Part shown: one piece after another, positions 1 through 63,217 of the stretch
How the letters are laid out: each line of letters starts with the position of its first letter
Numbering within the stretch: the first letter of the stretch is position 1
Origin: Diacronema lutheri
Taxonomy: Eukaryota; Haptophyta; Pavlovophyceae; Pavlovales; Pavlovaceae
Direction of reading: 5' to 3'
NCBI GenBank assembly: GCA_019448385.1
Contig: JAGTXO010000001.1
Location: forward strand, 1,302,001-1,366,000
Length of the DNA: 64,000 nucleotides
Program-made: the position numbers and the translations under genes
Notes under the pieces: generated by a model
Told to the model about the DNA's origin: nothing
What the model saw: only the letters and a program-made list of their open reading frames with translations
Database searches by the model: none

Positions 1-761
1 CCGAAGCCTGTATGCGCTTCGCCCTCCTCCTCGTGCCGGCGCGCGGCACGGGCGGCGAGCTTATCGGCCTTGTCGGCGCCTACTCGCTCATCACCGATGC
101 GGCGGCGAGCGAGGCGCAGAGCTTCTCCAACGACTGGCAGGCCGCGCAGATGATCGGGCTCGTGCGCGACGCGATCTGCACCGCGCTGTCGTGGCAGGGC
201 CGGCAAGAGCGCGTCGCGACGTCGATCCTCGACGGCGTCCGCCACCGCGCCGTCTACGATGAGGACGGCAACCCGCTCGAGCAGCCCGTTGACATCCGCG
301 TCTCGCGGCCGGTCGCATCAGAGCTCGCGGAGCTCGACGCCAAGCTCAGCGCGCGCAACGACCTCTCCGTCCGTTTTGGCAACCTGGGCGAGGCGCACGG
401 CGACTCGGAAGACGACGCGCGCCTCCCGCCCGGCGCCGGCGTCATGTTCCAGTGCTGGCAGCCGTGCATCGAGGCGTTCGTCACCGAGGCTGGCGCCGTG
501 CGGCTGCGGTTCCCCGAGTGCACGCCCGAGGACTGCATGATGCGCGAGCTCTCCGTCGGCGCGACAGGCGCGTCATGTGCGCTCGACCTCGTCCGGCTTG
601 AGACGTCGCAGGAGCTGCACGCCGTCCTGCGCATGCTCTCCAACAACCTCGCGGCCGGCGGCACCGCCGACGCCGTGTCGGAGAAGTGCTTGCCCGCGCT
701 CTACGCGCTCTTCCGCCTCGCGCTCGGCGACGAGCAGCCGTCGCTGATGACGCACGAATGA
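1..761 (+). CDS. unknown protein, left-truncated
   Basis: The reading frame is open from the left edge and stops at 761, so the ATG at 12 need not be the real start. About 250 residues are visible. I do not recognise the family. The visible part is a balanced globular sequence with several Cys residues (for example around 447-470 and 520-540) and no clear membrane segment or low-complexity tract, which argues for a real protein rather than a chance GC-rich frame. It is convergent with the next gene, whose stop is at 907, leaving about 145 bp between the two stops. Confidence 0.55.
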   Translation, partial: EACMRFALLLVPARGTGGELIGLVGAYSLITDAAASEAQSFSNDWQAAQMIGLVRDAICTALSWQGRQERVATSILDGVRHRAVYDEDGNPLEQPVDIRVSRPVASELAELDAKLSARNDLSVRFGNLGEAHGDSEDDARLPPGAGVMFQCWQPCIEAFVTEAGAVRLRFPECTPEDCMMRELSVGATGASCALDLVRLETSQELHAVLRMLSNNLAAGGTADAVSEKCLPALYALFRLALGDEQPSLMTHE

Positions 762-906
762 CACGCGCCAATGCCGTTGCCCGCGCGGCGTCGAGGCCGA
801 GCGCGCCGCGCCATGCACGAGCCCCGCTCATTTTTTTCGGCGCCTCGCGGGCAATGACCGCTGCCGCTTTTCTTTGGCCGTGTGCTCAGCGTAGTCTCGC
901 GCCATG

Positions 907-3208
907 TCAGACCATCGGGCTAGTCGCGCCGTTGCCGTGGCCCCTGCTCGAGCTCTTGGCGAGTGTGACGCTGACGGCGACGTGCTCATCGGTCGGCAGG
1001 CCACCGCTCTGCCTCCGCCCCTCCCTCCCTCCGGACGGCTGGTCTGCACAGCCGAGCGCGAGCTGCGCGATGGCAAACTCGACGCTCGAAGGCGCGCGCC
1101 CATTCGCGCCGAGCCTCGCGCCTTCTGCGCCGAGGCTGTGCGCGCCGCCCTGGTCAATCACCTCGGCGACGAGGTCGCTCCCCGCATCGTCCAACCGCCA
1201 GGCGAGGACGGCGCCGCTCGTGGGCGAGGACGTGAGGAGTAGCACGTCGCCCTGCACGGGCGGCATCGTCTCGCCCGCGTCGAGGTAGGGTTGCTGGCGC
1301 GCGCGTCGGGGGCGCCGGGCAGCGTGCGCGTGAGCGCGCGCGCGTGGCATGGCGCGCAGCGCGCGCGCGTGGCATGGCGCGCCTGCGCAGGCGGCGCACC
1401 GGATCGCCGAAGCGGCAGCCGACGGAGCGGAACACCTCGCACCCGCGCTGGAACGCGCGGCGCACGTCGGGCTGCGTGCGGCTGTCCTTGAGGTCGTCGC
1501 CGATCGCGTCCGCAAATCCGGACGAAAAGTAGCGCGCCGCCGAGTCCTCGGTGATCGACGCCCAGCAGATCAGCTGCAGCTGCGGCAGCTGGCGGACCGC
1601 CACGAGCGCGAGCGGCAGCGTCAGGCACGCGTTGAGGAAGACGCACTCGAGCCGGCAGCCGGGCATGTCGTGCGCCTCGGCGAGCATCGCGACGAATTGC
1701 TCAGGGCTCGACTGCAGATCGACGCGCGAGTTGTCCTGCTCGAAGGCGAGCGCGCTGACGCCAAGCGGCTGCGCGAACGTGTGCCCGGAGAACATGACGA
1801 TGCGCGGCGCATATCGGAGCACTGACGCGCGCGCGTCGTCAAACGTTGCGGCGGGCACGAGCTCGAGGTGGACGCGCGGGATCGCGCGCACGAGGAATTT
1901 GAGCTCCTGGCCGAGGCGCAGCGGCTGCAGCCCGAGCTCGCGCTGCTGGCGCTTGGTGAGCGTCGGATTGGCGAAAATGCCGAGCAACTCGATCCGCTCG
2001 CCCGCGATCAGCCCCGCGCGCTCGTCGAGGGTGCGCTGCTGGAAGACGGAGCGAACAAAGCTGAGCCGTTCGAAACGATTAATGCGCCGTGCGCCGAAGA
2101 GGAGCAGCACGCCGCCCACGCTTGCAAGCCCGAGCACCTTGGTCGTCGGCTCGCGTGCGCAGCGCATTTCCGTGCCGCCCGCGATCCACGCACCCGCCTC
2201 GCCGAGCGCGCCGCACTGCGCCGCGAGCAGCAGCCAGAAGCAGCCGTGCAGCGCGGCGCACGTGAGCGCGATGAGCAAAAAGTCGAGGGCCGAGTTGAGC
2301 GCCAGCGCGGTTTGGTAAATGAGCAGCCACGCGAGCTGGTAGAGCGCGACCTCCTCTGCGTCCGCGATGCCGTCCGCGCTCGCGTCTGCCGCGATCGGCA
2401 GCATGGTGAACGTGACGAGGTTGAAGCTGCCCACGGCCGCGCACATGACGATCGGCCGCCAAAACCGCCGCAGCCGCGCCGACGAGAGCAACGCGGCGGC
2501 GCACAGTACGAGCGCGCACGGTATGAGCCCGTGTGTCGCCTTGAGCAGCAGCGGCGAGCGCGCATGCTCGGGCGCGCACAGCACGAAGAGCGCCTCGTAC
2601 GAGAGGACCGCACCGCACAGGAAAAGCCTCCGCTGCACCTTGCGCAGCTGCAGCTCCGTCGTGAACTGCTGGTACGCGCTCTCGAGCCGCGCGCTGCCCT
2701 TGAAGCGATTGCTGTACATCGACTGGCGTAGCGCGCGGCGCTGCTCGCGCTCGCCGTGCTCGATGAGCGCGCTCACGGCCGCGTCGAGCTGCGGCGGGTC
2801 GACCAGGTGGATGCGCCGTAGGTACGCGCACGCTCCGCTTGACCCGCGACCGTCGAGCGCGGCTTGCGAGCGTGAGCGCGAGAGCACGTCGAGTGGTGGG
2901 GCGCGCTGCGAACGCGCCGCGCTCAGCTCCGTCGCGCACGTGCCGAAGGTGGTTGAGCGCCGGCCGGGCGGCTCAGGCCGCGAGCGGCAGCCGCCGAGCT
3001 CGGGTGCGCGCGCGCCCGGCGACGGACCAGAAGCCGAGGGAAGATCGACGCGCAGCTGAACGCCATCGAGCGCCGCTTGGGACGTGCGCTGGCTAAGCTC
3101 GAGCTGTGTCGTCGCACAATCGGCCTCGCGCTCCGCCTGTGCTATGCTCGAATCGAGCCGGTCCATGAAAGCGAGCCGCCGTCTTGTTTTTAAAACCAAA
3201 AAGTCCAT
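907..3208 (-). CDS. multi-pass membrane protein with C-terminal CHAT-like (caspase-fold) domain
   Basis: Two exons are proposed: 3208-1400 and 1293-907, with a 106-bp intron (donor gtgcgccg, acceptor gcgccag) that keeps frame and gives about 731 residues. ATGs at 3208 and about 3166 are both possible starts. The N-terminal half is Ser/Arg-rich, followed by several hydrophobic segments (roughly 2640-2060). The second half carries an FSGH motif followed about 60 residues later by FLNAC, the His and Cys blocks of CHAT/caspase-like peptidases, and then a short RFGDP element characteristic of CHAT proteins, after which the intron falls. In the family these residues form the catalytic dyad; protease activity here is inferred. 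A membrane-anchored CHAT protein is unusual. Confidence 0.72.
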
Positions 3209-3248
3209 TTCATTTTCATGGACCGGCCCGCGAGCTTTGTGAGTGCCA

Positions 3249-5248
3249 TTAGAAGGAGGCGCCGAGCTGCGCGTTCCAGGCCTCGTACTGCGCGAGTGTC
3301 TCCGGACGCACCGAAGGCCTGATCACGCGCAGCCCGGACTGGAAGTCGGCCAGGCCGATCTCGCGGATCTGCTCGACCGTGGCGTCGTAGATGCGCGCGC
3401 CAAGCTCGCGTACCGGCCCCATCGCCGCCTCCTTGCACAGGTTGGCCAGGTCGCTGCCGCTGTACCCGTCCGTCATCTGCGCCACCGCGCGCAGCTCGGC
3501 GGCTGGCAGCTCCTTGCCCTGCTTGCACATCAGGTTGGCGACAAGTGCGGCGCGCGCGCCATTGGACGGGAGCGGGATGTAAATGCGCTTCGTCAGCCGG
3601 CGGATCGCCGCGTCGTCGAGCTCCTGCGGCCGATTGGTCGCGCCCATCACGAGCACGCGCTGCTGGCTGCTCGCCGAGAGGACGCCGTCAAATTGCACGA
3701 GAAACTCCGTCTTGAGGCGCCGACTCGCCTCGTGCTCGGACGACGAGCGCGCCGTCAGGATCGAGTCAATCTCGTCGATGAAGACGACGGAGGGCTGGCG
3801 TTGCGCCGCGACACCGAAGAGCGCGCGCACGAGCTTCTCGCCGTCGCCGAACATCTTGGACGTGAGTGTGGACGCCGACACCGAGAAGAAGGTCGCGTTC
3901 GCCTCGGCGGCGACCGCTCGCGCGAGGAGTGTCTTGCCCGTGCCGGGCGGGCCGAAGAGGAGGAGGCCGCGTGGCGGCGCGCGCAGACCGGTGAAGATCT
4001 CGGGGCGCAGGCTGGGCAAAATCACGATCTCGCGCAGCGTGGCCTTGGCCTCTTCCAGCCCGGCTGCGCGCGCAGGTCAGGAAGGGGGAAGGGGAAGGAG
4101 GATGGGGCGGGGCGGGCGTGCGACACCACGCGCGGCGCAGCGCGTGCACGCACACAAGCCCCCTGGCGAGGTGCTCGCGCCACCACACGCTCGCGCGCAG
4201 AGCGCTCGCGCGTGCGCCCGTGCCGCGCACCAATGTCATCCCACGAAACGCCTTCGCGCGGCAGCACGATCTCCTGCAAGATGTTCTTTGCGAGTGCGGG
4301 GTCGACGCCGGCCGGCTGCGGTTGCTCGTTCTCCTTGCTGCCCGCGCGCTCCCTCTCGTCGGGCTCGGCGTGCGCACGGCCGGGCGTGCGCAGCACGCCC
4401 GTCGAGTGCCGCTTGAGCACGCCGCTCTCCATGCTGCTGTGCCTCCGGAGCGGCGCCATGAATCCGGGCGACTTGCGCTTGGCGAGCGAGCTGAGGGCAG
4501 CGGCTGCACCGGACGGGGTGCCGGTCGGATGCGCGCTGAGCGCGTCTGCGGCGCCACCGCTGCGCTTGCGTGCGAAAGGAAAAGGAGATGCGCTTGCTCG
4601 GCGCGCGATCGTGCCCACGCCTGCCGGCGAAGCGGCATCGGCGCGCGTGTCGGGCGGTAAGCTGCGCTCGGGTGTGCGACAGACGCCGTCGAGACGTGCC
4701 TGTGGCTGCGGCTGCACGGGATCGGCGTCCAGCAAAAGATGAGGCACGGACGACGCGCCCGCCACGACATGCACGTCGCACGCGCGGACCGCGTCGACAC
4801 GTCGCGGTGCTTGCGCCGCGGCCGGTGACCGCGGCGGTCCGGCGTGCGCGCCCTGCGTTCCGCCCGCCGGCCGCGAGGCGCTTGAAATGACGCTCGTCTC
4901 GGCGGGCCCAGTTGTGCGCGAGTCCACTGCCACAACAGCGCCGCCCACCGCGCCTGCCAACGCGACGCCCGGCTGCAGCTCGCGCTCTGGTGCCGCGCAA
5001 CCGGTCTCGTCCGGCGCGCCGGGCGAGGGAGCGCCGTGGCGCATGGCTTGGGCGCGAAGGGCAAGCAGCTGGTCGACAATCGCGTCGGACGAAAGGTTCG
5101 CCTTGACACCATGCTTCTTGGCCAGCCGTTGCAGCTCCCTCCGCCCGAGCATCAACACGCCCGAGCCCGAGGTCGGCAGCGCTCGCAGCTCCTCGCCCTC
5201 GACCATAGGCCGTGTTTGAATTAGGCGATTCGCCGCAAATATGCGCAA
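3249..5248 (-). CDS. FIGNL1: FIGNL1-like AAA ATPase with N-terminal SAP-like motif
   Basis: Two exons, 5248-4231 and 4063-3249, join across a 167-bp GT-AG intron to about 610 residues. The splice rebuilds the family hallmark in which the WDDIAG motif runs straight into GLEEAK. Walker A GPPGTGKT lies near residue 377 and Walker B FIDEID near 432, with the substrate-loop and sensor regions of fidgetin-like-1/katanin/spastin ATPases. FIGNL1 proteins act as hexameric ATPases in recombination (RAD51 turnover) and microtubule severing. Residues about 25-70 resemble a SAP helix-extension-helix DNA-binding motif; the linker is low-complexity. A second ATG at 5206 is an equally good start and would leave 78 bp to the divergent gene. 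Confidence 0.85.
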
Positions 5249-45447: not shown

Positions 45448-48400
45448 ATGCTCGCCGCCTTGCCGCCCGGCTTTGCGGAGCGCTTCGCGACGGCCTTCGT
45501 TGAGGTGCTCCACGCCCTCCGTGACGCTGAGGCACTCGAGGGCGTCGGCGCGGTGGGGGTGCGTCAGCCGGAGACGGAACGCGCGCTGAAGATGCTGCTC
45601 GTCCTCCCGGCGCTGCTCCTGCGCCGCACCCCCCGCTCTGACCCACGCCGCATGGGCGCCGCGCTCGCGCAGCGTTTTACACTGTGGGAGACGCGCGCCT
45701 ACGCCGAGCTGGTCGCGGGCTGGGAGCGTGATTGCGCGGTGCACGCCACGCGGCGCTGGCCCGCGCGTGAGGATGCCGCGGACCGCGCTCTCCGCAGGGC
45801 GCTCGCTCTCATTGCCAAGGGCAAGATCTCTGATGCGTCTCGCCTGCTTGACAGCCACGGCATCGCTGACATCGCGCGCCCGGAGGTGCTCGCGCAGATG
45901 GTGGCCAAGCACCCGGTGCGTGTTGAGAGCGTCGACGCTGTCCTCGACGGTGTGGATGACGCTCCGCACCTTCGGGTCCTGCCCGCCGACATCGAGACTG
46001 CTTTTCGCCACCTCGACACCGACAAGGCTGCTGGCGCGTCGGCTTGGCGCTACGAGTACCTCACGGCGCTGGTGCCGACCGTGCCCTTCCCCTCTCTCGT
46101 CGCGGCCGATGCGGCGGCCGCCGGTGCGTACTTCGCGACGCGCTTTGCGAACGGCGCGCTGCCAGCTTGGTTCAACTTTGTCTTCTCGTCCGTGCGGCTG
46201 CTCGCCCTGCGCAAGCGCGCCCCGTCTGCTGACGAGGCGGAGGATGCCAGGCCGGTGGGCATTTCCTGCGCGCTCCGCCGGGCGGTGACGAAGGCGATCT
46301 TCGCGAACGCGTCTTTGAAGGAGACCTTCGCGGGCCACCTCGCGCCGCAGCAGCTTGGGGTGGCGGTCGCGGCGGGCGCCACCAAACTCATCATCGGCCT
46401 GCGCGAGCTGCTGGACGCTGAGCTGAGCTTTGGCATCTTCACCCTCGACATCTCCAACGCCTTCAACTCCGTCTCTCGCGCAGCCGTCCTCCGCCAGCTG
46501 TCCGACGGCAGCGTCCCCGGCGAGATCCGCGCGCTCGCTCGCCTTGCGCACGCGACTCTCGGCCCGCAGGCGCCCGTCTTTGCCGGCGGCGGTAGCGGCG
46601 GCGCGCCCCTCACGCAGCTTCCCTTCCGAAGCTCGGAAGGCGTGCAGCAGGGCTCGGTGGAGGGCAGCTACTTCTTCGCGGTCGCCATCCAGCCCGCGCT
46701 CGTGGCCCTCGACGCCGAGCTCGCCGCGGTCGGTGGGGCCGCGCGCGCAGGTCATGACGACGTCTACGCCGTCGGCCCGCCCGCTCTCGTCGCCGCTGCG
46801 CTCTCGCGCTTCGAGGCTGCGCTCGCCGGCCTCGGCCTTCACGCCAATCTGGCCAAGTCGGCGTGCTGGATCGATCCGCGCAGCGCTGATGCGCTCGAGG
46901 GCTGCCGGGGGGCCGTTCCCCTCGGCTCGGTGGCGGACCCGGCCACTGGCGCTCTCCACTACGGCCTCAACATCTACGGCGTGCCGGTGGGCTCACCTGG
47001 CTACGTGGGCAGGACACTCGCGACCAAGACCGACGAGATCGCTGGCATCTCGAACAAGCTGATCACAACGCTCGGCTCGTCGGCCAAACAGTCGCTGTGG
47101 GTCCTCACCCGCCGCTCCACCATCTTCCGCTTCTCCTACTTGATCTCCCACTCGTACCTGTCAGACTCCCTGCAGGCCGCGGCTGCCTTCGACGACATCC
47201 TCGCCCGGCAGGCTACCGTCGCTCTCGGCGTCTCCGTCTCGACGGATGCCATCGCGAGCCGCCGGCTGCCGCTCCCGATTGCGATGCATGGCACCGGCCT
47301 GCGCAAGCAGGTCGACCTCGCTCCCGCCCTGATCTGGAGCGCCGCCAGCCTCGCCCTGCCGCACCTGCTCGACACGCGCGCCGCGGACGGCTCGGTCCTG
47401 GAGGCGGGCGTCCTCGACCGGCCTGCCATCGCGGCGCGCGTCGGGCACGACGCCTTCGCCGACACGGACGCGCACGGGTGGCGCTCGTTCCTCGCCTCGG
47501 GCTCGCGCCTGGGGCGCGATCTCGCCTCCGCCTGGCACGCCATGCAGGCCGAGCTCGGCGGCGGCCAGGGCGACACGGAAGTGCGCGTCCTCCGCCTGCC
47601 GCCCGGCTACGTCGCGCCCGCCGCTCCCGCCGCCGGACGCCGGCCTAGCCTCTTGGCCGACATCACTGGCGACCGCGAGCGCTGCCGCTTCGACATGCTC
47701 AACGCTGAGCACGCCGCCATGCCGCCGGGCTCGCGCCCACGCGGCCTCTGGTTTGGCCTCGGCAAAGAGAGCGGCCTCTTCCTCGAGGCCCTGCCGCGAG
47801 CCTATGCCGCTTTCTCTCCGGCGGAGTGGGCCGAGGCGGTTGCGCGCTACTTGGGTCTGCCGAGCCCCGTGTGCGCGCAGCTCGCGGCGGCGGGCGCGCG
47901 CCTCGCGCGCAGCGGCAGCCAGCGCCCGATCCCGGTCGATGCGTTCGGCGACGCGCTCGCGGCGGCACCGGGCGTCGCCCACGACCACGTCGCGAAGCTT
48001 CGCCACGACCCCGCTCTCAACCTGCTCGCCTCGCTGGCTCGCGGATACGCCGGGACCTACGCGCGGCGCGAGGACGCGGACATCTTTGGCTCCGTGCTCG
48101 CCGGCGTGCCGCCGGCCGGGCGCGCGGCCCTGCGTCGTCGGCGCGTGCCCACCGTCGATCTCGTCGTAGTGCTCAACGGTGCGGGCTCGGCCCCTCAGCT
48201 CGTGCAGACACTGTGCGAGCTCAAGTCGATCTCGTACTGCCCCACGCGCTACGGCCAGTCGGACACGCGCCGCTGCCAGGCCGCTGAGCGGCGGGCGGCG
48301 GCCGTCGGCGGCGAGCGGCGGCGTGCGTGCGCTCAACTCGACGAGGAGCTCTTCGGCATGCAGCCGGGCCAGGTGGGCCCGATGCAGGCGCGCCTCAACT

Positions 48401-48771
48401 CGTTCCCGCCGATCCGCGCGCTGGTCATCGGCTCGTTCGGCGAGTGGTCGGCCGGCCTCGCCGACCTGCTCGTCACCTTCTCGCACATGGGCGCGGACGC
48501 GTGGATGGCGCGCATGGGCGCGCCCTCGCGCGACGTCGCCCGCGCGGCCCTCGAGCGCCACATGCGCCTCCAGCTCGCCGCGTGCGTCGTGCGTGGGCAC
48601 GCGCAGCTCCTGCTCGCGCGCGCGCAGATGGCGCGCGGACAGGCGCCGCCGCACCGCCACGCGGCTCACGGCGTCCAGGCGGATGTGGACGCCTGCGGCG
48701 GTGTGGACGGCCTCTGCTTCCGGCGCGGCGACGGCGGCGGCGGCCGGCGGGGGCCGGCGAGGGGTGGCTAG
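45448..48771 (+). CDS. element ORF2: reverse transcriptase with C-terminal restriction-like endonuclease
   Basis: The frame continues ORF1 after one TAG; the first ATG is 45448. RT blocks in order: a thumb/linker region with DTDKAAGASAWRYEYL, RPVGISCALRRAV, a LAPQQLGVAV block, the catalytic-Asp strand FTLDISNAFNSV (Asp at 46447), EGVQQGS, and GHDDVYAV with the Asp pair at 46756 and 46759. The C-terminal 250 residues show D-LVVVLNG (Asp near 48157), ELK (Glu 48217, Lys 48223) and a GxxGEWSAGLADLL block, the PD-(D/E)XK layout of restriction-like endonucleases in R2/NeSL-type non-LTR retrotransposons. The residue before HDD is Gly, not the usual Tyr/Phe/Ala, so activity needs checking. Confidence 0.8.
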   Translation: MLAALPPGFAERFATAFVEVLHALRDAEALEGVGAVGVRQPETERALKMLLVLPALLLRRTPRSDPRRMGAALAQRFTLWETRAYAELVAGWERDCAVHATRRWPAREDAADRALRRALALIAKGKISDASRLLDSHGIADIARPEVLAQMVAKHPVRVESVDAVLDGVDDAPHLRVLPADIETAFRHLDTDKAAGASAWRYEYLTALVPTVPFPSLVAADAAAAGAYFATRFANGALPAWFNFVFSSVRLLALRKRAPSADEAEDARPVGISCALRRAVTKAIFANASLKETFAGHLAPQQLGVAVAAGATKLIIGLRELLDAELSFGIFTLDISNAFNSVSRAAVLRQLSDGSVPGEIRALARLAHATLGPQAPVFAGGGSGGAPLTQLPFRSSEGVQQGSVEGSYFFAVAIQPALVALDAELAAVGGAARAGHDDVYAVGPPALVAAALSRFEAALAGLGLHANLAKSACWIDPRSADALEGCRGAVPLGSVADPATGALHYGLNIYGVPVGSPGYVGRTLATKTDEIAGISNKLITTLGSSAKQSLWVLTRRSTIFRFSYLISHSYLSDSLQAAAAFDDILARQATVALGVSVSTDAIASRRLPLPIAMHGTGLRKQVDLAPALIWSAASLALPHLLDTRAADGSVLEAGVLDRPAIAARVGHDAFADTDAHGWRSFLASGSRLGRDLASAWHAMQAELGGGQGDTEVRVLRLPPGYVAPAAPAAGRRPSLLADITGDRERCRFDMLNAEHAAMPPGSRPRGLWFGLGKESGLFLEALPRAYAAFSPAEWAEAVARYLGLPSPVCAQLAAAGARLARSGSQRPIPVDAFGDALAAAPGVAHDHVAKLRHDPALNLLASLARGYAGTYARREDADIFGSVLAGVPPAGRAALRRRRVPTVDLVVVLNGAGSAPQLVQTLCELKSISYCPTRYGQSDTRRCQAAERRAAAVGGERRRACAQLDEELFGMQPGQVGPMQARLNSFPPIRALVIGSFGEWSAGLADLLVTFSHMGADAWMARMGAPSRDVARAALERHMRLQLAACVVRGHAQLLLARAQMARGQAPPHRHAAHGVQADVDACGGVDGLCFRRGDGGGGRRGPARGG

Positions 48772-50220
48772 GCGTGTGTGGGTGTCCGCCCATGACGCGT
48801 GCGTCGCTCGCGCGCGGCTTGGGCTTGCACGGCTGGCGCGCGCGTGGCCCTGCGCCTCCGCTCCACTGGCCGCTGCTGCTGTCGCCTTCGCGCCTGCCGC
48901 CGACGGTGTTTTCTGCGCCCCGCTGGGCGCTCCTGCATCCGCCTTCGCGCCTGCCGCCGACGGTGTTTTCCCCGCCGCACTAGCCGCTGCTGCATCCGCC
49001 TTCGCGCCTGCCGCCGATTTTCCCGCCCCACTAGTTGCTCCTGCATTCGCCTCCGCGCCTGCCACCGACGGCGTTTTCCCCGCCCCACTAGCCGCTGCCG
49101 CTGCCGCGTCCGCGCCCGCCGCCGCGGGCGCGTCTTCCGCCCCACCAGCCATCGCCGCCGCGCCCGCCGCCAACGCGCGCACCGCCAACGTGCCCGTTGC
49201 CAACGAGGCTACCGCCACCGAACCAGCCGCCCTTGAGCTTCCCCTCCAACCCGCCAACTCGGCGCTGCTTGCGTGGGCGGGCGACGCGGCTGCGCGCCGG
49301 CTGGCCGCCGCCGCCGCGAGCGCCGGCCTCCCGCAGGCAGAGGTGGAGCGCATCGCCAGCGGCGACATGCTCGCCTCAACCGTCGACGCGTGCTGCGAGG
49401 TCGTGCTGCGCGTGCACGGGCAGGCCGGCGGCGGGCATGTCTGCCACGTGCCGCTCGCCGCGCAACCCGCGGTGTTTCAGGACGACGCCGAGCGCGCCGC
49501 GCTGCTGCACCGCCTGCGCAGCGAGGCGACAACGCAGGCTGTCATCGGCGTGTGGAGCCCGTCGGACGAGCGCGGCGGCGCGGGCGGTGACGACGGCGCG
49601 CAGCTCGCCTCCGGCCATTTCACCGCGTTGCGCCTTGTGCGCGTCGCGCGCGCGGGCGAGCATCGCTACGACGCGGTGCTCGTCGACACGCTCGCGTCGC
49701 CCTGCAGGCAGGCGCTCATGCTCGCCAAGGCGATAACTGCCACGCTGCACGCGGCGGGTCTCGACATTTCGCGCGTGCGCCGCGCGCTGCTGCTCAACGA
49801 GGCGGCGCAGCGTGGCGCGACGTGCGGCCTCGCGATAGTGGGCGCGCTCAACGACGCGCTCGCCGCGGCGGGCTGCTCGTCCGCGCCGCGCACGTTCAGC
49901 GTGGCGGACATGTACGCTGTCGGCGAGCGCCTCCGCGTCGCGCTGACCGGCGCGGCCGGCGATCGTGCGCCGGGCGGCGTCTGCGCGGTCACGAGCGCGG
50001 TGCGCGGCGGGGGCAGCCCCGATGGCGCCGAAACGCCGCCGCAGACGCGCGGCGCCAAGGCCGCCGCTGGCGTCACCGCCGCCGCCACCGCCGCCGCCAC
50101 GCCGCCGCCGCCCGCGCTGGGCGCCGCCGCCGCCGCCACCGCCGCCGCCGCCGCTGCTGCCGCCGCCGTGGCCGCGCCGCCACCGCCGCCACCGCCGCCG
50201 CCGGCCGGCGACGCGGGCGA

Positions 50221-50293
<73 letters not shown>

Positions 50294-53200
50294 GCCGCGC
50301 GCACGTTCTTGAAGCTCGCGCCCAGGGCGCGCGCGGCCGCCTCGGCGCGTGAGGCGTTGCGCGCCGCGTGTGCGCGCGCGGACGCGGCGGCGTCGTCACA
50401 CGCGTCGGCGCCGCACGCGCCCGCCGGTGCGCGCCGCCGGCGGCGCGCGGGCGCAGGCGAGCTGGCGCTCGCGGCTGCGCGCGCGCTCGCCTCGACGGAG
50501 CACGGCGATTTGACGGACGACGCGCTCGAGGCCGCCGTCGAGCAGGAGCTGGGCGACGAGCGCGGCCAACTGCTGCTGTGCACGCGGGGCGCAGCGGCGC
50601 AAAGGCCCGCGCTTTGCCGGCTCCTGAAGCACGCGTGCGCGTCGGCGCGCGCGGCGAAGCGCGCGCAATTCACGGTGTTCGTCGTGCGCGCGGCCACGCG
50701 CGGCGAGCGGGGGGGCGCCGCCGCGAGGCGCGTGGACTCGGTGGTCGAGCTGTCGTGCGCGCTGCACGAAAAGGCGGGCGCGCTCGGCGGCCTCCAGAGC
50801 GTCTGTGTGCGTGGCTTTGCCCTCGAGCGCCGCCGGACACTCGACGGTGGCGCCGAGGCCGGCGCGTCCGCCATCGGCCAGGACGAGCAGGTCGAGGCAG
50901 AGGCGGGCGAGGCGTCCGTCGCCGGCGTGACGATGGCCAAGCAGCTGCGTCAGTTTGCCGAGCAAGCTGCCCGCGACGACGTGCTCTTCCGCGTCGCCGT
51001 GTCCGAGGCCGACGCCCACGCCCGGCTGGCGCGCGTTGCGGGTGACGATGTCGGCGCGTACAGCGTCGTGCTCGCAGTCGCCGGGCTCGTCTGGCTGGCC
51101 AAGGCCGACGAGGTTGCGCCGGCGGCCGCCCGGTCCGCCGCCGCGCCGCCCGCCGCCCCGCCTGCTGCCGCCACGTCCGCCGACGCCGAGCGCGACGCCT
51201 CGCCTTCCGACCGCCTGCGCGCGCTGACGCTCGCCGTGCGAGTCGCGCTCGCGCGCGGCGTGCTGCGCCACCTCCTCGCCGACGCGTCGCCGGGCGCGTC
51301 CGCGACCGCTGGCGGTAGTTGCGCGACGCCCGTCGAGGCGGCCACGTCCGCCGCCGCGCCGCCCGCCACGGGCGTCGTGACGAGTGGCGTCGCGGCGGGC
51401 GCTGTGGCGGCCGCACCGGCTGCTGCGGGCGGTGCGACGGCGGGTGCATCGCCCATCACGCGGCCGGCGAAGCGCGCGCGGCGCACGCTCACCGCCGCTC
51501 CAGCCGCCTCGGCCGTTGCGGCCGCTGGAGGCGCACGCGCGGGCGCACGCGGCGCGGCCGGCGCGCCTCGCGCGCGCGCCGCGCGCGCGCCGGCCGAGTA
51601 CGTCTGGCTTGCCATCGCGCGCCGGATGCTGGCGGCGCGACACGCGGCGGCCGCGGGCGGCGACTTTGTCGCGTCGTGCGTCGCCGCGATGCAGGCCGAG
51701 TACGGCGACGGCTGTGCCGTCGTCGTCGGCGACGCGCCTGATGACGCCTTGGTCGAGGCTGCGGCGGCGGCGCTGCTCGAGGGCAAGCACGCGGCGGTGA
51801 GCCTCGGCTGCGTCGACCGGCCGGCGGTGCTCGTCGTGCAGCGCGCCGTGGACGCGCCCACGTCGCGCGTGCACGGGTGGTGCGCGCACGCGGCGGGCGC
51901 CGCCGAGTTTGACGAGGGCGCCGCGCACGGCGTGTTCAACGCGATCGTCGAGCGCGCGTGGGCGCTGCGTCCGGACCCGGCTGACGGCAGCCCGCCGCCC
52001 ACGCGCACGTGGGAGGTCGAGCAAATCGCTGGCGACGCGCCCGACCAGGCGGGCGTGGCCGCGCTGCGCGTGCTCTACGCGCTCGTCGCGGCGCACGGCC
52101 GCTACCGCTCGGCCGCCGCGCTCTTTGGCGCGCTCGCGCAGCTGCACGCGCCCGACGCCGCCGGCGCGCGCGCGGAGGTCGTCGCGGCGGCGTGCGCGGT
52201 GCCGCACGGCGCGCGGCCGGGCGCCGCGCCGGCGGCCGCGCGGGACGACGCGAGGGAGCGCGCATGGGAGGGCGCTCAGATCGCCGCGCTCGCCGTCGGC
52301 GCGGACGCTGCGCGCAGGCGTGTCGCGCCCGTGCGCGCGCTCGTCGACGCGCTCGGCACGCCACCGACCTCGGCGATCACGGGCGGGCCGGCGGTCCGGC
52401 TCGCGGGCGCGGGCGACGGCGGCCACGGTGCACGGTGGGTGGGCGGGCAGGCGGCGACGCCCGCCGAGCAGCTGCCGAGGGAGCTGCTGCGCGCCTACCA
52501 CGAGGCGGTGCTGTGCATCACGCCCGGCAGCCTCCAGCTCGGCCCGGCGGCGCTCGACGCGGTCACGCGGCCGCGCGAAAACGACACGCTGGAAGGCCTC
52601 CTCGCGCGCGTCAGCTGGCAGTGCGGCGCGAGGGCGAGCACGTGCGCCATGCTCGCCACGTTTTCCGAGCAGGCGGGCACCGGCTCGCGCGTCGCGCTCA
52701 AGGCCCTCCGCACGAGCTCCGACCTGGCCGGGCTGACGGCGGCTGCGGTCGGGCAGCAGGCGCCGCAGACGCCGCCGCCGCCGCTGCTCGTGATGCTCGG
52801 CCGCTGCCCCAGCCCGCTCGTCGGCGGCGGCCTCTTCCCGCCCGACCGCGCGACGGGCGAGCCGGCGGTGCACGCGGCGACGTCCGAGCTCGCCGTCGAG
52901 CTGCTGCGCGACGCGCGCGCGCTGGCCGGCACGGACGGGCGGCTCGTCGTGCTGTGCCTCGAGGCGTCCAACCCGCTCTGGTTCTGCCCCAAGGTGCGCG
53001 AGCTCGAGCTGCCGCGGACGCGGTCGGACGGCGTGCGCGCGTCCGGCTGCACCTGCCCTGCGACGTGCAGCGATGCGCGCGGCGCGGCGGGTGGCGCTGC
53101 CCGCGGCGCATCGACGCGGCCGGCGGCGCGCGCGATCAACAAGGCGGTGCTCGACCACTTCGTCGCGCTTTTCGGCCGCGAGGGCTTCGCGACCTTTGAG

Positions 53201-56200
53201 TTTGCGGGCGGCGGCGAGGCGAGCTGGCTGTGCGACAGCGCGGCCGGCACGACGACCGTCGCGGCGTGCGCGTCGCTGCCGCCGCGCATGGGCGATGGGC
53301 AGCTGGCCATCCGGCGGCACACGCTCGGCACGGGCGCCGACGCGCCGGCGCACGCCGTCGTCTCGCTCCGCGTCGCGCACGTGAGCCACGCCATCCGCCG
53401 CGCGGCGGACGACGGCGGCGCGCGCGCCGAGCGGATGGCGCGCGCCGCGCGCGCGTTTTGCGATGTGGCGGCCGCGCTGCGCGTCGACGCGATCCTGGCG
53501 GAGGTGCCCGAGGACCGCCCGACGGGCACGCCCTTCCTTGGCGGGCTGCTCGAGTTTTGGAACAAACGCCACGGGAGCTCGACGGCGCCAGCCACGCTCG
53601 CGCTCGGAGACGTGCGCGAGGTGGCCAAGCGGACGGCCGACGCAGCGGCCGGCCGAGCGGACGAGGTCCCTGCGGCTGGCCGTCCGCAGGTCGCGGCGCG
53701 CGCGTGCGCTGGCGCGATTGGCGGCGGCGCGGGCGCGGCGGGCGCCTCGGACGCTGCGCCCCGTGCACTGGCGGGCGCGTCGGGTGCGCGCACGGACGGC
53801 GGCCCTGCCGACGCACCGCGCCAGCTGGAGAGCCGCTACGGCGAGGCGAGCAAGCTCGACCTACCCCAAGATTCCACTACGGGCTGCGTCCTCGACGCTC
53901 GCGAGGCCCAGGACCGCGCGCGCGTGCCTGCTGCGCCCGACGGCACAGCGCTGCGCCGCGTGCTCGACGCCGTCGGCGCGGGCGCGCCCGCGCAGCGCAG
54001 CCCGCGCTGGCACGACGAGCGATGGGAGGAGGTCACGGGCAGCAAGGTTGGCGACGTCGTGAACGACAACGCCGGCGTCGCGCACGAGACGCTCACCGAC
54101 GAGTACGTGCACCGGCGGCGGCGCGAGGTGCGGACCAAGGCGACGACCGCGGGCATCCTCGGCGAGGCCGTCGCGCTGCGCAAGCTGGCGGCCGCGTACG
54201 GCATCACCGTCGTGTGCAACCTGCCGATGGTGCGTGCGGACCCGCACGACAAGAGCGCGCCGTTCGCCTTCTCGCCGGACGGGCTCGCCATCCTCCCCGA
54301 AGACAACGAGCAGGTCCTCGTCGAGGTGAAGACGCTCACCAAGGCGGACGCCAAGGCGCACGAGGACGGGCCGCCGCAGCCGCACCGCGATCAGCTGCAG
54401 CTCGGCATGCACGTCCTCGGCGTGCGCAAAGCGCTCTACGTGCAGTACCTCAGGCACGAGGACCGGATCGTCGTGCACGTCGTGACGCGCGGCGTCGGCT
54501 GGCTTGCATTCGCGCAGCCGAGGGTGCAGGCCTTCTGGGCGCGCGTCGTCGAGCGGCGCGCGCGGCTCGAGCGCGCGCGCGCCGACCACCCGGCTGCGAG
54601 CCGGCGGCACCGGCGGCAGCAGACGCCGGCCGGGCCGCCGCTCGTGCTCGCGCTGGACGGGCGCATCCCCGCCGCGCGCGCCGCCGCGCTGCACGCCGTC
54701 GCGCACGGCACCGCGAGCGCGGCGGCGGTGGCGGCGACGGCGGCGACGGGCGACGCGACGGCGTTGCAAGACGCGATCGCGGCGCTGCGCGCGCCCGTCG
54801 GCAATGCGGCGATCGACAGCGCAGCGCGTGCGGAGCGCGCGGCCGTCGAGCGGGCGATCGCGTACCTCGGGCAGCCGGCAGGCGACGCCGCCGCCCGCGG
54901 CACGGCCGAGGCGGCCGAGGAGGAGAGGACGGTCGACGCCGACATCTGCGCGTTGCTGCACCAGCTCGGCGCGAGCGTGGCGCACGTGCACGTCGAGGAC
55001 GCGGATTGCGTCACGCGTGAGCACTGGGGCGGGGCGGTGCTCGCTGCAGCGGGCGACCCGTCGAGCGCCCCCGCCATTTCGAGCGTCATCGTCGCGCACA
55101 TCGTGCGGCTCGCCGGCTTTGGCGTCGAGCTCCCGCAGTCGATTCGCGTCGCCCCCAGCACGGCCGACTGGCACGAGGGCTGGCTCGACGTGCAGTGCGT
55201 GCTGCTGCGCACGCGCCGGCGCGGGCGGCGCGACGACGACTTTGTGGCCGTCGTCAGGCGCGGTGGGCGCTGGTTTGCGTGCGAGCCCGGCCGCGCGCGG
55301 CGGCTGCAGTGGCGGTCGGTCCTGCGCCGCGCGCGCGGCGGCGTCGACGGGACCGGCGAGGAGGCGTTCGCGGTCGTCTACGTGCGGCGCGGCGACGCGG
55401 CCGGCGACGCGGCTGGCGACGCGCAGGCCGAACGGGCGCGCGGCGGGCGCGCGCGCAGGCGCACGCGCGGCGCCTCCGCCGGGCTCGAGGCGGCCGCGCC
55501 CGCCGGCGCGCCGGCGGGCGCTGCTCACCGCCCGCCCGCCAGGCGTGCCACGGTCGCCGCGCGCACCACGCGCTCTGTGACCGACGCGCGGCACTCGGCG
55601 CCTGCCGCCACGGTTGCACCTGTCTTCGACTGGCGCGCCGGCCGCCCGCCCCCTGCCGCCGCCGCCGCCGCCAAGCGCGGCCAGGCGCTCGAGCCGGGGC
55701 AGTTCGCGCGGCCGCGTGGGCGCGCGCCATGGGGCAAGGTCTGGGACAGAGTCTCGGGTGCGTGGGCGGACAAGCCGACTGGTGCTGCCGTCGCCGCCGC
55801 GCCGCCGCCGCTGCCGCCCGCCGCCGCGCCGCCGCCCGCCGCCGCGCCGCCGCCCACCGCCGCGCCGCCGCCCGCCGCCGCGCCGCCGCCCGCCGTCGCG
55901 CCGCCGCCCGCCGCCGCGCCGCCGCCGCCGCCGCCACCGGCGGCGCTCGGCCGCCGGCAGCACGTCGGCGCGGGCGGCAGCGCGGCGGGCCGGCGGCTCG
56001 CGGCCATCGCACGGCGGCAGCGCGGCGTGCGCGCGCCGCCGCCCGCCGCGCGCTTCCTCGCCACGCTGCCGCCACCGCCACGCGACGGCCTCGCGCGCAC
56101 GAGCAAGCAGGCGCGCGCGAGGCGCAACGCGGACGGACGGCCGGCGCACGCGCGCGCGGCCAACGCGCGCGCCTTCTACCGCGGCGTGGAGCTCGGCGTG

Positions 56201-59200
56201 CACGCGACGCGCGCCATCGTCGACGCGCGCCACGCCGACCTGCCGCAGGCCGTCTTCGTGGCGGAGGCGCGGGCGATCGTCGCGCGCTCCGCCGGCGGCG
56301 GCGCGCTGCTCGCGCCGGACGACGTGCGCGACCTGTGCGACGCGCAGACGGACGCCGATCGCGCTGCGATCTGGGCGTCGGTGGGCGCGCACGAGGCGAC
56401 GCGCATCTTCGCGCTCGTCACGCGCAACGCGAGCTTGGCGGGCGCGGCGCTGCTCGTGCTGCACACGCCGGCGGGCGCGCCGGCGCGCGCGCTCGGGCTC
56501 GTGGCGACGCGCTCGCGCGCGCCGTCGACGGGCGCGCCGCGCGACGCGCACAGGGCGCTGGTGCAGCGGTTGGACGTGCTGATGGACGCGATCGCCGCGG
56601 CGCGAGGCGCGTCGCCGCTCGAGCTCGAGCTCGCGCTCGCGCCCGAGCCGCAGAGCGCGTGCAACGCGCGTGCGGCCGCGCTGCTCTGCCTGCAGGCCGT
56701 CGCGGACGCGAGCGGCCGTCCCGCCGCTGAGGACGCGCTGGCCGCGCTCGACGACGCGCGCGGCATCGACCGGCACTGCCACGCCGTCCGGCAGCAGATC
56801 GAGGCGAAGCTCGCGTGGCGGCGCGCCGACGGCGCCGTCGGCGTTGACGGCGCCGACGGCGCGCCCGCGCTCGCGCCTGCCGCCGCACCGCCGGCGTGCG
56901 CGCCGGCGCACGCTGCCGGCGAGGCGGCGGTCGACCAGGCGATCGTCACGCGGGTGCGCGACGCGCTGCGCGCGTGGGCGACGACTGGCACCGCGCCCAG
57001 CGCGGCGGTGCTCGACGACGCCTGCGCCGCGTACACGGCCCGCGCACGCGCGCGCAAGGACGCGCGCACGGCGCTGGGCCCGACGCGCGCGGCCGAGCTG
57101 CTCGCCGCGGCCGCGCGCGGCGGAGCCGACGGGGCGGATGCCGCGCGCGCGCTGCTCGGCGGCACGCCGCGCCTGCTCGTCGTGCTCCTCTGCGTGCCCG
57201 TCGCCGCGCCGTCCGGCGAGCCGCCGCGCCCGGTCGGGCTGCTCGTCGCCGACCGGCCGACGGACGACTCGCGCCCGGCCGCGCTCGTGCGCTACGACTT
57301 TGCGCCGCTCGACGCGGACGTGGCCGTCGCGGTCGGCGCGCATGCCGTCGCGCTGGCCAGTGCGATCTGGCCGCTGCTCGCGGCCGAGGGGGAGCCGCGG
57401 CCATCGCCCGTCGTGCGCTCGCAGCCGCGCGGCGGCGACGATGGCGCGCGTGCGCTCGCAACGTTCGCGTGCCTCGACGCGCTGATGACCGCCAGCGTCG
57501 GCGCGCACGGCCTCGCGGGCGGCGCGGGCATGCTGCCCGCGCTGGTCGCGCGAGGCGCCGCGGCCGCCCAGCGCGAGCGGCAGCTGCGCGCGGCCGCCGA
57601 GAGGCTGGGCGGCACGGTCGCTGGGTGGCCGGACACGGGCGCGAGCGCGGCGGGCGCGAGCGTCGACGAGGAGGCGCGCACGTACGAGGTCGAGGCGGTC
57701 GTCGACGAGCGCCGCAAGGCGGGCAAGAAGGTGACGTTCCAGTTCCGGATCAGGTGGCGGGGCTACGACGAGAGCGCCGACACGTGGGAGCCTGAGGCCA
57801 ACGTGAGCAGCGACCTCGTCGCCCAGTTCCGCAAGACGCGCGACGAGCAGAAGCGGCGCGCGGGCGTATCGGGCAGCGGCAGCGGCGGCGCGGGCGCGGC
57901 GTCGGCATTGGCGTCGGCGCCGCTTCGCGCGCACGGCGAGTCGGGCGCCGCGGGCAAGCGCGCCGCGGCGGGTGCCGCCGCGAGCGCGCGCGACGCCGCG
58001 GGCGCGCGCGCGCCGAGCGTTCCCCGCGCGCGCGGCGTCGAGCGCGCGCGCGTGGACGAGCCCGCTGCGCCGAGCGCGCGCGCCGCCGGCGGCGCGACGG
58101 CGCGCACGCGCGGCAGCGTGCTCCCGGGCTTCGTGGTCAAGCGCTCGACGCTCAACGCGGGGCCGCAGGCGGTGACGGCGCAGCCCGGTGCGCGGAAGGA
58201 GCTGCGGCGCATCGCGGCGGCCGTGCACAGGCTCACGACACAGGCGTACCGCGTCATCAACAAGGTGGTGCGCGACGAGGCTGCGGTGGCGAGCGCGCAG
58301 GCCGTCGGCGCGGCGTCGGGCGGCCCGTCGACCAGCGTGCACACGTCGACCACGATGGACAAGGGAACCGTCCGTGCGATCTTCTCGGCCATCGGCTGGC
58401 ACAAGGACGAGAGCACGTACGGTGCAGCGCCCCGAGGCAAGCCCGCCGAGCAAGCCGCCGCGCAGACCAAGGCGGCGACGGCGCGCGCCGTCGGCGAGAT
58501 GGCCGAGGGCGTCCAGCCCGTCTGCGCGGTGGGCCTCACGGAGATCCTCGAGGCGGAGGCGACGCAGGTGTCCACCGCGTGCCTGATGCATCCATCGCGC
58601 GTCGTGAACGGGCTGCTCCGCGACGTCGTCCGCGCGGCAGTCGAGCGCGACGAGGCGCTCGTCGCGCTGCCCGAGATGCAGCGAAACGCGCGCGTGCGCG
58701 AGCTGTGCGAGCGGCTGCTGCGCGGCGACGTGGAGGGCGCGCGCGTCGGCTGCCCCGCCGCGCTCGACCGCCACCTGCCCGACATGGTCCTCCACAAGAT
58801 CGACTACAAGTGCACGCCCACGAAAAGGTGGAACTACGACCGGCACACGACGCGCTACTTCCTCGTGCAGATCCGCACCCTGCAGCACGTGGCCGAGGGG
58901 CAGGCGCTGCTCTGCCGGCTCGCGCACATCCACACGCAGCTGACCGGACGGCCGCCGCGGTACAATGTGGCGCCGCTGCGCACGCACAATGTGCGCGCGA
59001 GGCGTGGCTGCCGCTGCCGCCGCCGAGGGCCCAAGCGCGCGCGCGCCGCCGCCGTGCGCGCCGCCCCGCGGCCAGGTTGGTCACGCGCCCGCGCGCTCGC
59101 GCGCCGCGCGCTGCGCGCAGGTGCCGCGCAACGTGCGCTTCGCCGCGAGCGCCATCTGGGTGACGCTTTCGGATGACGAGCGCAAGGAGCTGCGCGCGCG

Positions 59201-60845
59201 GCTCAAGGCGCTGGACCTGCGCGACCACGATGGCGAGCCGATCAAGTGGACAGGCACAAACGGCAACACCCCGCCGATGTCGGACGTGCGCGTCAGGTAC
59301 GCGGTCTTTGCGACGCGCTTCGACATCTCCAACCGCGTCTTCGACTACGCCGGGCGCGAGCGGCCGCCGGCCGATCTGCCGTGGCACGCGCGGCGCTCGT
59401 GGGTTGGCCTCGCGCCGCTGCCGCGCGTGCCGCTCCCGGGCCGGCAGCCCGTCAAGTCGGTGGTGACAGATGGCGTCGCCGTGCACGCCGTCGGGACCGT
59501 CCTCGTGCCGAAGGCGCAGGCGCCGGCCGGCGGCTCGGGCGTCCTGCACCGCTGGCGCCGGCCGGACGGGCGCATCGCCGTCGCGCTCGGCTCCGAGCTG
59601 CGGCGGGCGATCGACGTCGAGGCGGCGGTCGTCGTCGCGGCCGACCCGAACATGGGCAACATCACCACCTACTCTGCGCACGTCGGGCGGGCGGCCGTCT
59701 GGCGGCAGTTCACGCAGCGCGCGCGCGCGCGCGCCGCGGGCTTTGCGCGCGAGACGGCCAAGACCAACGCGGCGCGGCGGCGCGTGCGCAAGGACGGGCG
59801 CGGCGAGGAGTTCAGCGTGGAGGCGGACGAGGCGCGGCTTGGCGAGGCGCACAGCGCCAAGGTGCTCGGCGAGGGCGAGTTCCACGCCTTCCACCGCGAG
59901 AGCGCGCGGGTGCGCGAGCGCGCCGCCGAGCACGTGTACGACGCGCCGGCGCGCCGGAAGGAGCGCTGGCGGCGCGACAGCGGCGGGCGGTCCAACGCGG
60001 CGCGCGTCGCCGAGGCGCTCATCGCGGCGCACTGTGTCGACGGCGTGACGCGCGACCGGCTGCTCGTGTGCGTGGGCAAGTGGCTGCGCGACCACAAGGG
60101 CGCGCAGCCCAAGGGCGCGCCGCCCGCCTTCCAGGTGGGGCTGCTGCGCGAGCTGCGGCGGCGCGGCGTCGCGGCCGTCTTCGTGCCCGAGCCGTACACG
60201 TCGATGCACTGCTCGATGCCGCGGCTCGCCAAGGGCGGCAGGCTGCAGCGCTGCGGCGCGGAGCTCGCGCAGAACCCGCGCCTGCCCGTGGCAAAGGGCG
60301 GCACGCGCACGGTGCACGCGCTCGTCATCTGCCCGGCGTGCAACGGCGGCAAGAAGCCCGTGCACCGCGACTACAACGCCGCGCGCAACATCTTCTACGA
60401 CGTGCACGACATGGCGGCGCACGCGGCCGGGCGCGACACCACGTCGACGCCTGAGCGCTTTGCCCTCGTGCTCGCCTGGTGGGCGCGCGGCGAGGTGTGG
60501 GAGCGTGAGGAGCGCATGGTGCACGGCGAGGGCGACGACTGCGACGACGAGTGCGACGGCGACGACGAGGGCGACGACGAGGGCGACGACGACGACGACG
60601 ACGATGGCAGCGGCGACGGCGGCGGCGGCGAGGGCGACGGCGACGGCGACGGCGACGGAGGCGGCGGCGGCGACGACGACGATGACGGCGGGGGAGGCGG
60701 CGGCGGCGACGGCGGTGGCGACGACGGCGGCGGGCGCGGCGGCGGTGGCGGCGGCGGCTCTCGCGCCCGCACCCCCGCCCGCGGAGCTGCCAGCGCCAGT
60801 GCCGGCGGCGGCAGCGCGCGCGGGCCGAAGCGCGGCCGGCGTTGA
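48683..60845 (+). CDS. element ORF3: Ulp1-like protease, YqaJ nuclease, chromodomain and Fanzor polyprotein
   Basis: The frame is open for over 3,400 codons and joins a 575-codon exon across one intron (58991-59120; donor gtgcgc, acceptor cgcgcag, phase 0), ending at the TGA at 60845. It overlaps ORF2 in the +1 frame; the first in-frame ATGs are 48683 and 49369, so expression by frameshift, splicing or internal start is open. Domain order: Ala/Pro repeats (48884-49110), Ulp1/C48-like protease (49270-49950), long Ala- and Pro-rich linkers with possible degenerate Ulp1-like copies, YqaJ nuclease (53990-54560), poly-Pro/Ala linkers, chromodomain (57680-57840), Fanzor (58120-60560) and an acidic Gly/Asp tail with a basic end. 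Domains are separated by low-complexity stretches, as in a polyprotein. Frame continuity and domain matches are observed; joint translation is inferred. Confidence 0.75.
48884..49110 (+). repeat. four tandem 48-57-bp units at the start of ORF3
   Basis: Units beginning gccttcgcgcctgccgcc start at 48884, 48941 and 48998, with a diverged fourth from about 49046. They encode repeats of the type FAPAADGVF(C/P)APL. They lie just after the ORF2 stop. Confidence 0.85.
49270..49950 (+). other. Ulp1/C48-like cysteine-protease domain in ORF3
   Basis: Catalytic-order residues are His (codon 49616, SGHFTAL), Asp (49685, VLVDTL), Gln (49808) and Cys (49823, in AAQRGATCGLA), the H-D-Q-C order and QxxxxCG block of Ulp1/SENP proteases. 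In mobile elements such domains can process polyproteins or remove SUMO. Assignment is by motif only. Confidence 0.6.
50221..50300 (+). repeat. GCC microsatellite encoding poly-Ala
   Basis: An almost pure (GCC)n run of about 80 bp encodes a poly-Ala tract after a Pro run. It is expected to vary in length and prone to assembly error. Confidence 0.9.
53990..54560 (+). other. YqaJ / lambda-exonuclease-like nuclease domain in ORF3
   Basis: Sequence order fits the YqaJ viral-recombinase family of PD-(D/E)XK nucleases: SPRWHDERWEEVTGSKVGDVV, a GILGEAVALRKLA helix with its conserved Glu, FSPDGLAI with Asp at 54278, VLVEVKT with Glu at 54323 and Lys at 54329, and DQLQLGMHVLGV. In phages and viruses these digest one DNA strand to start annealing recombination with a partner protein. 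Activity is plausible because every motif residue looks present. Confidence 0.72.
55800..55950 (+). repeat. GCCGCGCCGCCGCCC minisatellite encoding PPPAAA repeats
   Basis: Six to seven consecutive copies of an 18-bp unit encode PPPAAA, preceding a run of Pro. It is probably a flexible linker between ORF3 domains. Confidence 0.9.
57680..57840 (+). other. chromodomain upstream of Fanzor
   Basis: The sequence reads YEVEAVVDERRKAGKK, then FRIRWRGYDESADTWEPEANV, then LVAQF, matching the chromodomain consensus including the aromatic-cage residues (Tyr at the start, Trp of RWRGY, Trp of TWEP). Chromodomains bind methylated histone tails and direct several retrotransposon integrases to heterochromatin. 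Its frame runs uninterrupted into the Fanzor domain. Confidence 0.9.
58120..60845 (+). other. Fanzor (eukaryotic TnpB-like) RNA-guided nuclease domain
   Basis: The N-terminal helical region (RRIAAAVHRLTTQAYRVINKV) and central blocks fit the Fanzor family. The RuvC-like catalytic residues are intact: Asp in AADPNMGNITTYS (codon 59643), Glu in FVPEPYTSMHC (60189) and Asp in HRDYNAARNI (60369). The zinc ribbon keeps CPAC (Cys at 60330 and 60339) but the first pair is altered: Cys at 60210 without the normal partner at 60219, with another Cys at 60252. Fanzor proteins use a guide RNA from their own locus to cut DNA. The intron falls between the REC-like part and the wedge/RuvC part. The C-terminus has a Gly/Asp tail of about 100 residues ending KRGRR. 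Confidence 0.87.
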
Positions 60846-61346
60846 CGCACGGCCGAGCCGCGCAGCGGTCGACGCTTTGCGGGCTCTGCCCAGGTCGCGC
60901 GCGGCTGGCGACGCGTGCCGCGCGCGGCACGACCGTGCACGCCGCCACCCGTGGCCGAGCGCGCCGCACCAGCCGGCCCGCTCCAACCGCCGTGCGGATC
61001 ACGGACGCTCGCTACGGCTCGTCGGCGCGCGTCACCTGCGCCGGCGGCCACGGCGCCGTCTGCTCCGGCCTCGTCGCGAGCAGCCCGACCGCTGCTCGCC
61101 GCCCGCACGCCGCCGCAGCAACGCTGCGCGTCGTGCTCCCCCGCTCGCCAAACGCGAAGAGCTCCCTCACAAGGACGTCCTTCCGAACGGCCCGCGCTGC
61201 ACTCGGGGCGCGATCGTGCCCCTGATCGGATTTGGCTTGACCATCTATACAGCTTCCGTCAAAGCAACTGCTTCGGACGCGTCCGCCATCGTTCGTTGCA
61301 GGCGCTCAGCGCGGGTAATCAAGCCCGGGGCGGGGCGGCGGGCGTC
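60846..61346. other. 500-bp non-coding stretch: candidate Fanzor guide-RNA region plus kinase promoter
   Basis: In TnpB/Fanzor loci the guide RNA is often encoded at or just downstream of the nuclease's 3' end. This spacer starts at the Fanzor stop, contains a perfect 18-bp palindrome at 60914-60931 (CGTGCCGCGCGCGGCACG) and other GC-rich stems, and has no convincing ORF. The right part (61200-61346) is less GC-rich and probably holds the promoter of the kinase gene. The element's 3' boundary must lie somewhere here; no poly-A or terminal repeat was recognised. Confidence 0.4.

Positions 61347-63217
<1,871 letters not shown>

Follow-up and report, generated by a model that had tools for sequence, protein, structure and literature searches.

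The TnpB/Fanzor superfamily is recognised by the motif D-X(125,275)-[TS]-[TS]-X-X-[C4 zinc finger]-X(5,50)-RD, as given in the available part of PMC3627910 (section 6), and the available text of PMC10711439 attributes to Fanzors a RuvC2 glutamate placed six residues ahead of the zinc finger and a DPG triplet at RuvC1 that is near exclusive to them. The Fanzors CRe-1 to CRe-3 of Chlamydomonas are borne by Helitrons and, in the accessible portion of their description, share with the locus studied here a C-terminal motif, an intron-containing gene, elements whose 3' ends are fixed and of which one copy or more is 5'-truncated; the only 'chromo' word in that portion is 'chromosomal', no chromodomain is mentioned there, and unlike CRe-1 to CRe-3 the Fanzor described below forms the end of a giant frame that also holds a chromodomain and a second nuclease. 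For the integrases of chromoviruses, the chromodomain has been proposed to bias insertion to methylated-histone chromatin. These Ty3/gypsy integrases carry a mobile-element enzyme and a C-terminal chromodomain in one protein (available text of PMC3605345) and resemble our locus in this union, but theirs is the enzyme of an LTR retrotransposon whereas ours is a TnpB/Fanzor-type RuvC nuclease. A fusion of a Fanzor to a histone-mark reader is, according to the first-pass annotation, not known to have been described, and our search of open-access text likewise found no chromodomain-Fanzor fusion described; one may be listed elsewhere, e.g. in subscription papers or supplements. 'Fanzor' and 'chromodomain' concern different proteins in the available text of PMC6338049, no word starting with 'chromo' occurs in that of PMC10711439 and PMC11423790, and in that of PMC10432273 it occurs twice, as 'chromosome', with no such fusion in the section on Fanzor diversity.

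The window analysed here is a stretch of 64,000 nucleotides of the haptophyte Diacronema lutheri, a unicellular marine alga (C9:1302001-1366000), and the genome searched comprises 43.49 Mb in 103 contigs. Element features are given in window positions on the forward strand. We think it moderately probable that the last gene of a multi-copy element encodes a giant protein that combines a YqaJ-type nuclease, a chromodomain and a divergent Fanzor1-like nuclease and that acts by the mechanism set out below. For this D. lutheri element the sequence itself establishes in which order the domains stand, that they share one spliced frame, where the 3' border lies, how many copies there are and that the D-E-D and zinc-finger residues are retained.

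The chromodomain lies at 57683-57835 (PF00385, E 4.2e-12, 46.2 bits against a cut-off of 25.1), upstream of the Fanzor domain as the first-pass annotation had described. A search of the PDB placed CDYL (E 9.7e-11), CDY1 and HP1 at the top and MPP8 lower. In the alignment with CDYL the aromatic residues are the Y of TYEVE and the W and Y of RWRGY, which we take to be the positions of the methyl-lysine aromatic cage of HP1. The domain is classed as HP1/CDYL type, with cage aromatics at the aligned places, and is a predicted methyl-lysine reader. Elsewhere in the genome, two chromodomains occur in one frame of 1421 codons at C69:981566-982417, with no TNB domain nearby among the matches listed.

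The nuclease half is encoded by exon 2 (59121-60845), which ends in an acidic and glycine-rich tail. Its frame matched PF07282, the TnpB/Cas12f-type zinc-finger/RuvC profile, with E 2e-6 and 28.3 bits (cut-off 26.3), so that both halves of the pair exceed their Pfam cut-offs; the TNB zinc-finger/RuvC-III domain spans 60153-60392. The RuvC D, E and D named in the first-pass annotation are all present, at 59643-59645, 60189-60191 and 60369-60371. Exon 2 reads D-X184-TS-MH-C4 zinc finger (C...C...CPAC)-X8-RD, in agreement with the superfamily motif, and a related pattern with stricter spacing was found in 2 of 20,000 shuffled exon-2 sequences. The RuvC2 glutamate sits six residues N-terminal of the first zinc cysteine (PE-PYTSMH-C), as in Fanzors. 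The RuvC1 triplet reads DPN in the window, DTG in the relative P0002 and DPG in P0003, P0004 and P0005; because it is DPN and not DPG, we call the window protein divergent Fanzor1-like, a name based on motifs, and do not file it as a proven Fanzor.

A second Fanzor family of the same genome is represented by L036 (C9:378300-382100; 338-3799 of that piece, minus strand), which has DPG, DESYTSQDCSKC and a long repetitive N-terminal part; among the listed PF07282 matches, 14 loci of this type score 43.9-44.5 bits. L036, itself classed as a Fanzor from its motifs, matched the profile of exon 2 over 114 columns (E 1.7e-8), and over 175 columns (E 1.1e-10) when the target was trimmed. It shares with the window the shifted glutamate, TS, the zinc finger and the RD motif, and differs in its DPG, its stronger Pfam score and the lack of a Pfam chromodomain in its frame of 1154 codons, which is open upstream in the fetched piece. 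The N-terminal half of the Fanzor1-like part (58121-58990), the end of the giant first exon, was delimited by coding phase; it aligns weakly with L036 and had no match in a Pfam scan. The AlphaFold model of exon 2 was poor (pLDDT 49), with weak structure matches. Several further candidates for the Fanzor part were set aside: Cas12f1 in the PDB (E 0.35 and 0.058, together with an unrelated earthworm protease) was too weak, the NCBIfam TnpB model (E 0.02-0.03) stayed far under its cut-off, the Csx1 and Cas12f models of PADLOC (E 0.004-0.09) were hit by the window sequence only, one of five members, and PHROGs gave one transposase family at E 0.1-0.15.

Protein searches with the whole Fanzor part returned only P0001, 99% identical. 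Those with exon 2 returned P0001-P0005, of which P0002-P0005 show 43-50% identity in the alignment. The first-pass annotation had suggested other algal genomes as a place to look for the same pair; the protein searches gave four exon-2 relatives, which start at exon 2 and come from contigs of 1.5-2.8 kb, and among the proteins returned no chromodomain-Fanzor relative outside D. lutheri. The exon-1 Fanzor half matched only P0006, again from D. lutheri and with no match outside the species, and scans of viral contigs, queried with P0001 or alignment A1, revealed no relatives. P0006 is KFE25_006464 on C69, a gene model that fuses a SAM-domain protein to about 70 N-terminal Fanzor residues; its Fanzor stretch is likely an element fragment inside a host gene model. 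Alignment A1 has the RuvC1 aspartate in each of its five proteins, and the glutamate, the zinc-region cysteines and RD in all three that reach this region (window, P0002 and P0003), with CxC in P0003 at the place of the window's CxxC. Retention of these residues at 43-50% identity argues against an improbable alternative, namely that the Fanzor part is decaying or has lost its activity, and is a passenger that is retained to bind DNA or RNA or is simply carried along. This alternative draws on the DPN of the window and the DTG of P0002, where DPG would be expected, and on the absence of codon-position bias among the copies: the 42 variable sites in 59121-60480 divide into 12, 16 and 14 by codon phase, and since third positions show neither deficit nor excess there is no sign of post-insertion selection.

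The first-pass annotation had assigned chromodomain and Fanzor to one gene frame, with an exon join from 58990 to 59121. Both assignments hold, in that the two halves form a single spliced frame in which the RuvC half occupies the other reading frame and the join fits a switch of coding phase and a GT-AG intron. From 48800 to 58990 the G+C content at third positions is 0.80-0.97 in one coding phase (0.94-0.97 from 57600); in the intron of 130 nt (58991-59120, GT...AG) G+C is flat by codon position at 0.86-0.88, and in the second frame after it third positions reach 0.92-0.98 up to 60500. A length difference of 2 bp between element copies falls within the intron, at 59035. All four relatives P0002-P0005 start, with MPR or VPR, at the residue inferred to open exon 2, and this common start is read as the exon-2 border since gene callers are expected to start at an exon border. 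Between chromodomain and Fanzor half, a low-complexity linker (57836-58120) continues in the chromodomain frame with neither stop nor methionine. Its coding phase is weak at 57880-58120 (G+C 0.85, 0.84 and 0.94 by codon position) because it is rich in Ala, Gly and Arg, and it may contain an in-frame intron.

Genome-wide, 150 of 306 candidates for PF07282 were scored, with 148 over the cut-off, and the 150 scored TNB loci were split by hand on score into 112 of the window family and 38 others. Among the matches listed, a chromodomain lies 2447-2476 bp upstream on the same strand in at least 90 of the 112 family loci and is missing from 22, and none of the 38 others has one within 10 kb. Chromodomains nearly identical to that of the element number at least 146 (150 scored of 260 candidates); 145 of the 150 score 53.7-53.8 bits, one at C46 scores 55.2, and the remaining four have higher scores or other locations. 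At least 90 of these 150 have a TNB domain downstream among the matches listed. Chance juxtaposition, misassembly or in-frame read-through of unrelated genes would be encouraged by the high G+C content, which makes this genome rich in long frames that arise by chance, but we consider it extremely improbable given the same spacing in at least 90 of 112 loci, the recurrence of the 12-kb module of the window in six other copies and the continuous coding phase. The joint occurrence of chromodomain and Fanzor is confirmed, and chance is not a reasonable explanation for it.

What did not stand is the picture of a free-standing gene with two domains: the pair is real and forms the end of a giant mobile-element frame. 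This frame spans 48170-59176 in the window, and its element part (48787-58990) keeps a continuous phase, with no stop in 3400 codons from 48790 to 58990, as compared with 15 and 29 stops in the other forward frames and 6, 18 and 37 in the reverse frames. In six full copies its length is about 4,100-4,500 codons (4513 in C9a, 4190 in C14). A YqaJ/lambda-exonuclease-type nuclease domain at 54008-54415 matched PF09588 as a fragment with E 1.8e-4 and 22.2 bits (cut-off 22), and with E 0.013, under the cut-off, within the whole frame; TIGR03033 matched the copy L011 with E 1.2e-5, far under its cut-off. Along the giant frame the order is YqaJ-type nuclease, chromodomain and Fanzor half. The other genes of the full element, taken from copy C9a, include one for a PIF1 helicase (E 1.8e-24) with its 2B domain, and no transposase or Rep (HUH) domain was recognised in those frames that were scanned with Pfam.

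Such a frame raises a rather unlikely alternative, in which the gene is fused and the mature proteins are separate, either by protease cleavage of a polyprotein or by an internal start, so that the chromodomain would serve integration and the Fanzor would act alone. The great length (4513 codons in C9a) fits this alternative, as do a UCH-type protease domain (E 4.3e-8) that C9a encodes outside the giant frame and the methionine at 58355, the first after the chromodomain, which lies within the Fanzor half and could be an internal start without the chromodomain. That start would lose 78 codons of the Fanzor half that share the coding phase, and a polyprotein finds no protease domain within the giant frame in the Pfam scans, a candidate Ulp1-like protease at 49610-49840, spotted by eye, having received no Pfam support.

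Under the preferred reading, of one joined protein, the Fanzor part would pair with a guide RNA derived from the 3' end of the element, with the guide running into flanking DNA, and would cut the matching empty site, whose repair would copy the element back; both steps are extrapolated from what is known of TnpB and Fanzors. The candidate source of the guide is the 3' untranslated terminus of 405 nt (60846-61250), singled out by its position; the fold of the last 171 nt at the 3' end had a z-score of -1.26 against shuffles, not significant, and an Rfam search of the terminus gave no match. The chromodomain would, as expected from chromodomain biology, tether the protein to chromatin with methylated histones, and by analogy with chromovirus integrases this tethering could bias cutting, repair or insertion to such chromatin. 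Two of these steps are the most uncertain, namely that the protein remains joined once mature and that it has cutting activity. More tentatively, the sequence would allow a chromatin-addressed RNA-guided nuclease, in which histone-mark reading confines guided cutting to a chosen chromatin state and a YqaJ-type nuclease stands alongside for end processing. If so, the natural fusion would let one ask directly whether a eukaryotic guide-RNA nuclease is steered by the state of chromatin, and the chromodomain-Fanzor protein could serve as a model for chromatin-aware editors. The family is recent, has many copies and is present in a culturable alga for which three RNA-seq libraries are published (PMC8379373), which brings the key tests within reach.

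The copy in the window measures 12.46 kb (48787-61250) and was delimited against six other copies and a seventh, partial one; since it starts at 48787, it is 5'-truncated and without the 5' part of the element. Its 3' border, compared with six further copies, is sharp and fixed at 61250, ending in ...TTGACCATCTATAC, and 40 of 40 scored matches to a 331-base probe of the 3' end were 100% identical (40 scored of 279 candidates). Full copies measure 31.0 kb (C9a, C9b and C4) or about 21.6 kb (C14, C17 and C29), and the two forms share the first 2.4 kb and the last 12.0 kb. Among copies the 12-kb module has 270 variable sites. The three 31-kb copies are 99.2-99.7% identical to each other with shared ends, which points to recent movement. 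About 2.0-2.9 kb from its 5' end, C9a contains a near-perfect inverted repeat (C9:1129564-1130431, 93.6% over 876 columns in a self-comparison); it belongs to the 31-kb form, and in the form of 21.6 kb apparently only one of its arms finds a match.

The left ends are TATATA[G/C]GGCG and the right ends CCATCTATAC, but CCATCTAACG in C9a. No target duplication of at least 7 bp adjoins the ends of the six full copies; CAG flanks C14 on either side. Long terminal repeats, direct or inverted, were considered and rejected, none being present in the terminal sequences or in self-comparisons of three full copies. Helitron2 elements are defined by asymmetric terminal inverted repeats of 8-15 bp, and here the longest match between the first 25 and the last 83 bases is 6 bp. 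The element resembles Helitrons in its PIF1-type helicase, in a 3' subterminal hairpin (GGGGCGCGATCGTGCCCC, 61205-61222, 28 nt from the 3' end, seen in sequence and folds) and in the absence of target duplication in the six copies, and differs from them in lacking 5'-TC/CTRR-3' ends; a Rep (HUH) domain, as in the RepHel protein of Helitrons, was not found in the frames scanned. Because the terminal signature of Helitrons is missing, we leave the element unclassified, with Helitron-like traits.

Contigs C1, C5, C6, C10, C12, C26, C29, C80 and C83 begin within about 20 bases of the 3' border, as judged from where the chromodomain or the probe of the 3' end matches. We considered a telomere-targeted element, several contigs ending at this border, and set it aside, reading the shared ends as assembly breaks; TTAGGG arrays occur at contig ends (C15, C29 and C30) and within contigs as well. 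These contig starts are probably assembly breaks at the repeat. Downstream of the window copy, a gene for an AMPK/SNF1 alpha-type kinase occupies 61347-62560 (Pkinase, E 1.8e-73; AMPK_alpha_AID, E 2.3e-6), and since its apparent ATG is 97 bp past the 3' end of the element, the insertion probably lies in the kinase promoter or 5' leader.
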